Position numbers and translations under genes: made by a program. DNA of 64,000 nucleotides from Halonotius aquaticus (GTDB taxonomy: Archaea; Halobacteriota; Halobacteria; Halobacteriales; Haloferacaceae): NCBI RefSeq assembly GCF_003605575.1, contig NZ_QKNY01000013.1, positions 1 through 64,000 on the forward strand. Direction: 5' to 3'. Numbering within the stretch: the first letter of the stretch is position 1; each line of letters begins with the position of its first letter. Below the pieces are notes generated by a model that searched no databases, had not been told where the DNA came from, and saw only the letters and a list, made by a program, of their open reading frames with translations. Positions 3,488-47,091 of the stretch are shown piece by piece.

Positions 3488-3760
3488 ATGGGTGTGATGA
3501 ACACAGACCGCTGTCGCAAGGTTGGATCGCTCATGGCAATCGGGCAGGGGATCGTGACCGCCCTCGCGCCGGGGCTGTCGGCGAAACTAACGAAAAAGCT
3601 GGTCGGCAAGAACTTCGAGAACGCTGACGCGCTTGAAGCGAAACCGGCCTACCGCCGGCAAACACGCGCCTTCGGCATCGGGCTGGCAGCCGCCGGCATC
3701 GCCGGCTACGTGATCGAGCATGTCGCCGCTGATACGGCGAGCGACGACACCGACGAATAG
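3488..3760 (+). CDS. Small conserved haloarchaeal protein, one membrane segment
   Basis: 90 aa. The N-terminal part is amphipathic with Gly/Ala-rich segments, then a basic stretch, then one clear hydrophobic helix near the C-terminus (GIGLAAAGIAGYVIEHVAA) and an acidic tail. An alternative ATG lies three codons downstream. I do not recognise a function. The pattern resembles small membrane-associated proteins common in haloarchaea. It lies between the HAD gene and cspA, with 116 nt upstream where I see no other feature. Confidence 0.65.
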   Translation: MGVMNTDRCRKVGSLMAIGQGIVTALAPGLSAKLTKKLVGKNFENADALEAKPAYRRQTRAFGIGLAAAGIAGYVIEHVAADTASDDTDE

Positions 3761-46593: not shown

Positions 46594-46764
46594 CCAGTTA
46601 CCACCTGTTGCGCCCCGGCGAGCAAAAGGCCGACGATCCGGGTTACGGCGTCGTCCTGGTGGAACAGAAATCGATTACATACTCCGGCTCACTGGGCGTG
46701 TGTCGCCACCGACAGTCGACATAACCAGAACCGTTTTTACCCGCCATCGCCGTCTTGCGAATGC

Positions 46765-46847
46765 GGTGGGATGGCAGAGCGGACTATTGCGCCTGCCTTG
46801 AAAGCAGGTGGCCTTTGGCCTCCTGGGTTCGAATCCCAGTCCCACCG
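46765..46847 (+). tRNA. tRNA-Ser (anticodon TGA)
   Basis: 83 nt. The acceptor stem GGTGGGA/TCCCACC is perfect with discriminator G. The anticodon stem CCTGC/GCAGG encloses CTTGAAA, giving anticodon TGA. A long variable arm (TGGCCTTTGGCCTC) is typical of serine tRNAs, and the T arm is CTGGG-TTCGAAT-CCCAG. No intron and no encoded CCA. A 21-bp copy of its 3' end lies 158 bp downstream. Confidence 0.96.
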
Positions 46848-46868
46848 AATTTTCGTGCGAACAACAAC

Positions 46869-46998
46869 GGCGAGCACCGGGTGTGCTCGCCAGCACTGTG
46901 AGCGCGTCGCTCGTGGTCGGGATTCGAGCAGCGAACAGTGCGAGGTCGCTTGCGACCTCGAAAGCGAACGGCGAAGCCGTGAGCAAATCTTCGATTTG
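46869..46998 (+). repeat. Four consecutive hairpins after tRNA-Ser
   Basis: Perfect stems follow each other: GGCGAGCAC/GTGCTCGCC (46869-46877, 46883-46891), CGAGGTCGC/GCGACCTCG (46941-46949, 46952-46960, 2-nt loop), ACGGC/GCCGT (46968-46972, 46976-46980) and CAAATC/GATTTG (46984-46989, 46993-46998). They fill most of the gap between the tRNA and the copy of its 3' end. Confidence 0.7.
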
Positions 46999-47005
46999 TG
47001 AGTGA

Positions 47006-47026
47006 GTTCGAATCCCAGTCCCACCG
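47006..47026 (+). repeat. 21-bp duplicate of the tRNA-Ser 3' end
   Basis: Bases 47006-47026 are identical to 46827-46847, the T-arm and acceptor 3' part of tRNA-Ser plus the discriminator. Direct repeats of a tRNA 3' end are the usual product of integration by tRNA-targeting integrases (attL/attR). No integrase remains between them, so this looks like an empty or decayed site. Confidence 0.7.
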
Positions 47027-47091
47027 CGTTTTTGCCGATCACCACGCCGAGCACTGCTATGTGTGGCTCCGTCGCAGTTCGATTTGCCTGC

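Follow-up and report, generated by a model that had tools for sequence, protein, structure and literature searches.

Why should a haloarchaeal tRNA gene be followed by a row of hairpins and then by an exact copy of its own 3' end, with no gene in between? In archaea and bacteria, mobile DNA lands mainly at tRNA 3' ends, and the question was raised by a 64,000-nucleotide stretch of the Halonotius aquaticus genome (contig NZ_QKNY01000013.1, positions 1 to 64,000; hereafter the window), in which a tRNA-Ser(TGA) gene anchors such an array at 46765-46847 on the plus strand (Rfam RF00005; ARAGORN gives 46764-46848). As originally predicted, the tRNA 3' end GTTCGAATCCCAGTCCCACCG at 46827-46847 recurs at 47006-47026 with 21 of 21 positions identical. 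The 158-nt gap between the two copies is filled with hairpins, and the four perfect ones that the prediction had listed were all recovered: HP1 at 46869-46891 (9-bp stem), HP2 at 46941-46960 (9 bp), HP3 at 46968-46980 (5 bp) and HP4 at 46984-46998 (6 bp).

No gene lies between the copies; the listed frames of 140 and 105 amino acids cross the tRNA itself and are not gene-like. An Rfam scan of the locus gave only the tRNA above the gathering threshold and no other structured-RNA family, and single-strand folding of the stretch was better than for 200 of 200 dinucleotide shuffles (z of -3.76). The claim that no integrase is present was borne out, with none between the copies or on the contig and no recombinase near the locus; tyrosine recombinase genes (PF00589) are present in the genome.

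Recurrence in the window's own genome

A downstream copy of the tRNA's own 3' end, matching at 17 or more of the 21 positions, was found for 11 of the 40 tRNAs of this genome and an upstream copy for none of the 40, so the repeat in the window is not a matter of chance. When all 41 tRNA loci were read, the array plan set out below was found at about one third of them, with two tandem units behind several tRNAs (Asn, Asp, Ser-CGA and Leu-TAA); the tRNA-Asp unit resembles the one behind tRNA-Asp in Halonotius terrestris (L238). This survey gives an unbiased figure, whereas the other sets were mostly collected through sequence patterns and their numbers are therefore not frequencies. Searching the genome with the window locus returned three other matches, behind tRNA-Val(TAC), tRNA-Ser(GGA) and the 3' end of aspS (about 51.6 kb on contig C9; gene identity confirmed), where the last bases of the gene itself are duplicated. 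At this non-tRNA anchor a direct copy, a partial inverted copy and hairpins are seen in the window genome, a similar arrangement with 46-nt copies is seen in the relative G026, and G002 has hairpins without a copy.

Anatomy and folding of the units

The anatomy was derived from 134-192 units of many genomes (142 for the B profile). Most Halorubrum tRNA-Asp arrays finish with an A module, and the array formula that the sequences give is therefore tRNA - A - (B - C - D - A)n; when the 14 nt that directly follow the last D are compared with A, a strong resemblance is seen in 14% of all units and in 1% of random pairs. D corresponds exactly to tRNA positions 53-73, that is the T-loop, the 3' strand of the T-stem and the 3' strand of the acceptor, and 95 of 132 first copies match at 21 of 21 positions. 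Identity to the local tRNA is 93-100% at offsets 0-20 and at background on both outer sides, with D ending exactly at the tRNA 3' end, although the left edge could lie anywhere inside its first four bases (GTTC), which are universal. In a non-cognate control, agreement with the D of other tRNAs was 29-57% where the acceptor is variable. B repeats the 11 nt of positions 53-63 in inverted orientation and reaches background beyond offset 10; its cognacy to the T-loop base is apparent from the counts (G-C 34 and G-T 0; A-T 90 and A-C 10). That B also copies the acceptor was ruled out for the main class, at 14% against 13% in the control. Rare variants (L007, L011, L222 and L235) have the acceptor strand inverted instead of the T-arm and the polarity of C reversed.

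The lengths of C peak at 38 and 49 nt and those of A at 33-50 and 60-77 nt, the two together making up about 60-190 nt, and of 121 units that could be scored, 119 have the purine-rich motif of C on the sense strand of the tRNA. Over all sets, units are carried by 31 tRNA species (isoacceptors), over which the anatomy of A, B and C is uniform. An identical 49-nt C stands behind tRNA-Arg and behind tRNA-Asp, with B and D cognate to each local tRNA. By these comparisons, B and D follow the local tRNA, and the A and C modules are common to different tRNAs.

Read in this way, the window locus begins with a 71-nt module A (46848-46918, plus strand), assigned from the equivalent module position in relatives and holding HP1. 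It is followed by B (46919-46929, minus strand; GGGATTCGAGC), an inverted T-arm copy with one mismatch against the cognate T-arm, by a 76-nt C (46930-47005, plus strand), and by D (47006-47026, plus strand), the exact 21-bp direct copy whose source is tRNA positions 53-73 at 46827-46847 on the same strand. Behind D, at about 47027-47056 on the plus strand, stands a decayed second A module (CGTTTTTGCCGATCACCACGCCGAGCACTG), which resembles the start of A and is placed by repeats and by the relative G003, in which the equivalent sequence comes straight after the tRNA. The original list of features thus had the hairpins and the 21-bp copy right and missed B and the decayed A. HP1 is the hairpin of module A and HP4 that of C itself, lying within an apparent base C (AGCGAGCAAATCTTCGATTTGTGAGTGA; cf. 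units L039 and L066). HP2 and HP3 (46941-46980, plus strand) seem to be a secondary insert lodged inside C, and similar two-hairpin inserts are found inside the C of units L036, L356, L376, L431 and L435. Given that haloarchaeal insertion sequences of the tnpB (IS1341) type (L383-L388, identified from the translated C-terminus) bear the HP3 hairpin (GCGAACGGCGAAGCCGTGAGCGAGTAG) at their right end too, the nested hairpin in the window may be of IS605-family origin.

B-C-D forms one long hairpin, in which B pairs with D to form stem 1, followed by an asymmetric loop, a covarying stem 2 and an inner hairpin. An automated longest-stem search inside C was noisy, hardly rising above shuffles for stems of at least 6 bp, and covariation was therefore assessed only on the aligned 49-nt C class (20 units). 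Pairing was found in 96.3% of cells, compared with at most 48% for slid control structures, and the covariation score was 0.285 against 0.081 for shuffled alignments, none of 500 shuffles reaching the observed value. RNAalifold predicted the same 23 pairs. A T.T mismatch follows stem 2 in 16 of 22 units, and the inner hairpin has tandem G.A pairs in 20 of 22 and usually a GNA loop. As modelled here, B-C-D is a conserved foldback with compensatory changes; the acceptor part of D is unpaired in it, yet is 93-100% identical to the tRNA. A scarcity of G.U/G.T pairs was considered as a mark of DNA-level structure and dropped, tRNA acceptor stems likewise having only 2.9% in these GC-rich genomes.

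Distribution and variation among the Halobacteria

The original prediction called for a search for similar arrays at other tRNA 3' ends, and they were found across the Halobacteria. A pattern of an inverted followed by a direct T-arm copy was present in 97 of 145 Halobacteria genomes, the reversed pattern in none. Across 84,980 species with one genome each, about 75 of 80 among the matches listed were from Halobacteria, and the signature thus appears essentially confined to this class among the matches listed; the five others (two Nitrosocosmicus, a Rhodococcus, an actinomycete MAG and a Methanomassiliicoccales MAG) were read and no unit could be established. Nearly all haloarchaeal matches lie directly 3' of a tRNA, and eight that seemingly had none adjoin intron-bearing or degenerate tRNAs that ARAGORN missed. 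None of about 75 haloarchaeal matches spans a gene. Because these loci had been picked by their T-arm pattern, we also searched with an independent C-core pattern that contains no tRNA sequence, and this occurred in 50 of 145 Halobacteria genomes with a reversed control of zero. Of the 33 occurrences that were read, 31 are found 49-512 nt downstream of a tRNA and always in the sense orientation, and a T-arm copy follows the C core in all 33, the other two included. These results point to a family of hairpin units at tRNA 3' ends that is spread across the class Halobacteria.

Plasmids gave one match only, and in viral and phage collections the unit had no match. In viral contigs, a strict T-arm pattern gave 20 matches, which were ordinary tRNAs, terminators or chance; a looser one had picked up the anticodon arm of the usual tRNA-Ser(TGA) as well. 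A search of the open-access literature, with subscription papers outside it, returned no earlier description of these arrays.

A comparison of the tRNA locus among close relatives, likewise called for originally, revealed both presence or absence and length variation, the comparison being between species with one genome each. The four-hairpin unit is shared by the window genome (G000) and G001, the unit of G002 has a single hairpin in C, G004 has kept A alone, and in G003, which shares the next gene, there is no unit and the tRNA runs into the sequence that stands behind D in the window. Two genomes of one genus (G005 and G032) have two units at tRNA-Ser(TGA) in opposite order (L039 and L049). 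The units of G000 and G025, which belong to different genera, share 87% identity, compared with 64-65% for their flanks and 59% for random sequence; in the same-genus comparison, conservation of the window unit does not exceed that of its flanks. In G007, a degenerate, near-full-length second tRNA-Ser stands behind tRNA-Ser(TGA) in place of a unit (L051).

The orthologous tRNA-Asp of 29 Halorubrum species carries 0-3 units with differing combinations of A and C (A57-C38, A57-C37, A72-C38, A70-C49 and others), and the two modules appear to have been combined almost freely between these species. A Halorubrum C resembles the C behind a different tRNA of the genus (median 0.92) more closely than the C behind the same tRNA in other genera (0.79), and the values for A are 0.82 and 0.65, respectively; in the window's own genome, similarity of C and A by genus and by tRNA is about equal. 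One Halorubrum locus has four tRNA-Asp copies (L425), most congeners having two. Taken together, the comparisons of loci and modules suggest that units have moved and been shuffled, more than that they were simply inherited under constraint. The original prediction was to be abandoned if neither arrays at other tRNA ends nor length variation came to light, and both were seen: the arrays recur at tRNA ends and vary in length among relatives.

Origin of the arrays

Replication itself could generate much of this arrangement. If a polymerase folded back on the tRNA gene, template switching would leave inverted and direct T-arm copies, and slippage between D-A repeats would resize the array with no dedicated enzyme. 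Adjacent inverted and direct copies are the expected trace of such a fold-back, in several arrays D and A together form a direct repeat some 60-90 bp long (in L380, for example, a 66-nt identical A stands after the last D), and deletions between 10-19 bp direct repeats have been described in Haloquadratum (PMC3119063). We nevertheless consider this origin unlikely: it explains B and D, but not the C family, which is conserved and structured across species and tRNAs and is not a tRNA copy, nor the confinement to one archaeal class (among the matches listed) when tRNA genes are universal, and D stops exactly at the tRNA 3' end. The fold could alternatively act in RNA, as the original prediction also suggested, the tRNA transcript continuing through A and B-C-D to give a folded trailer with a role in 3' processing or termination, or a small RNA. 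The sense-strand bias of the C motif, the structure kept by compensatory change, the direct junction with the tRNA and the strict sense orientation would all suit such a role. It is hard to reconcile, however, with an acceptor part of D that pairs with nothing and still matches the tRNA, with the lack of a unit at most tRNAs of the same genome and at the same tRNA in close relatives, with unit conservation not above that of the flanks within a genus, or with the comparable arrangement behind the protein gene aspS, and we regard it as quite unlikely.

Very unlikely, in our judgement, is the descent suggested by the original comparison with attL/attR, in which ordinary tRNA-targeting integrative elements collapsed after gene loss. 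Such elements are classically recognised by a tRNA 3' end that is repeated exactly and directly, as it is here, and the genome has tyrosine recombinase genes. Against the comparison, B-C-D lies almost always right behind the tRNA instead of marking the distant ends of large elements, the unit is missing from the viral and phage collections, and the anatomy of A, B and C is uniform over 31 isoacceptors. There is one displaced case: Haloferax larsenii (L261) has identical B-C-D copies at 43-89 and 3649-3695, 3.6 kb apart, the second of which follows a 5'-altered copy of tRNA-Glu, as if carried by a large insertion.

The reading that we prefer, and hold to be somewhat better than an even chance, is that the window locus belongs to a set of modular cassette arrays without genes, mobile or recombinational and with a 21-bp core, on tRNA 3' ends throughout the Halobacteria. 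The original suggestion of a minimal mobile unit or recombination substrate gains support from the recurrence, presence or absence, length variation and shuffled modules at orthologous tRNAs. Strand exchange at the sites derived from the tRNA would add, remove and shuffle units and modules; B:D would most likely be folded as a cruciform or single-strand hairpin and be recognised by a recombinase supplied in trans, and B and D could be matched to the local tRNA by templated copying, quasi-palindrome correction or gene conversion. Several observations sit uneasily with such a cassette. The units could be linked to no recombinase, phages and viral contigs yielded no vehicle, and neither excision nor insertion was seen to happen. 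The cognacy of B and D to the local tRNA is unlike simple donor-circle insertion, the strict orientation to tRNA transcription would suit an RNA role too, and ordinary recombination could expand or contract the D plus A repeats with no enzyme of their own.

A bolder version, which we put forward only tentatively and think rather doubtful, is a class-wide haloarchaeal recombination system, a gene-less counterpart of the integron, in which hairpin cassettes would move between tRNA 3' ends and the target would be the source for rewriting the guide arm B and the core D; every tRNA whose T-loop reads GTTCRA could then serve as anchor. As it stands, a whole archaeal class appears to have structured, gene-less, shuffling arrays at tRNA 3' ends, with a 21-bp core taken from dozens of tRNAs. 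If they are mobile, they would imply an unknown recombinase or a templated matching of element to target, and would account for the high variability of haloarchaeal tRNA neighbourhoods. Cultivable test systems are offered by the tRNA-Asp loci of Halorubrum and the tRNA-Asp and tRNA-Gly loci of Haloferax.

The cassette reading has parallels in several known systems. Integron arrays (attC) likewise consist of tandem cassettes, each with a terminal foldable site, behind one fixed anchor, with modules reordered between relatives, and the covarying foldback with its T.T mismatch and tandem G.A pairs would be a candidate for a single-strand foldable recombination site with conserved unpaired bases. 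Unlike integrons, these cassettes are gene-less, none of the PF00589 genes of the genome is assigned to IntI, dozens of different tRNA genes act as anchors and the anchor sequence is copied in the foldback stem. Shufflons also re-assort segments between inverted sites, but here the segments are not protein-coding, no Rci-like enzyme was identified and the orientation of C is nearly fixed. Haloarchaeal tRNA-targeting elements (e.g. with an SNJ2-type integrase) share insertion at a tRNA 3' end that leaves a direct copy, and a direct copy is present at both ends here; the arrays differ in their lack of integrase, cargo or any gene, in their length of about 100-240 bp, in being arrays of units, and in their inverted T-arm copy and hairpins, and apart from the displaced Haloferax case the same ends were not seen on free or large integrated elements.

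The PATEs of Haloquadratum, non-autonomous derivatives of IS200-IS605 elements, are similarly short, with palindromes near their ends and no terminal inverted repeats (PMC3119063). In the arrays, hairpins of A and B-C-D lie near both ends and terminal inverted repeats are lacking, and the occurrence of the HP3 sequence at tnpB element ends adds to the likeness. PATEs make no target duplication (PMC3119063), whereas the arrays have a 21-bp duplication, occupy tRNA ends only and occur in genomes without a Y1 transposase. Such a transposase was considered as the mover and set aside: it is not required in the same genome, PF01797 being absent from the window genome and several others with units, where it could have been lost later. 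With REP/BIME sequences, which are dispersed intergenic copies with a GTAG/CGTC-type tag and a RAYT transposase, the units share imperfect palindromes arranged head-to-head and conserved mismatches; they differ in that all C-core matches lie at tRNA 3' ends and are not dispersed, the stem is cognate tRNA sequence, and the window genome has no Y1 gene. An integrase locus behind tRNA-Glu(TTC) in the same genome was examined as a possible full-length relative and rejected, since tRNA-Glu is not repeated anywhere within 15 kb. The recombinase there is a tyrosine recombinase pseudogene some 1.7 kb downstream of the tRNA (L337; contig C13, 13.4-14.0 kb).
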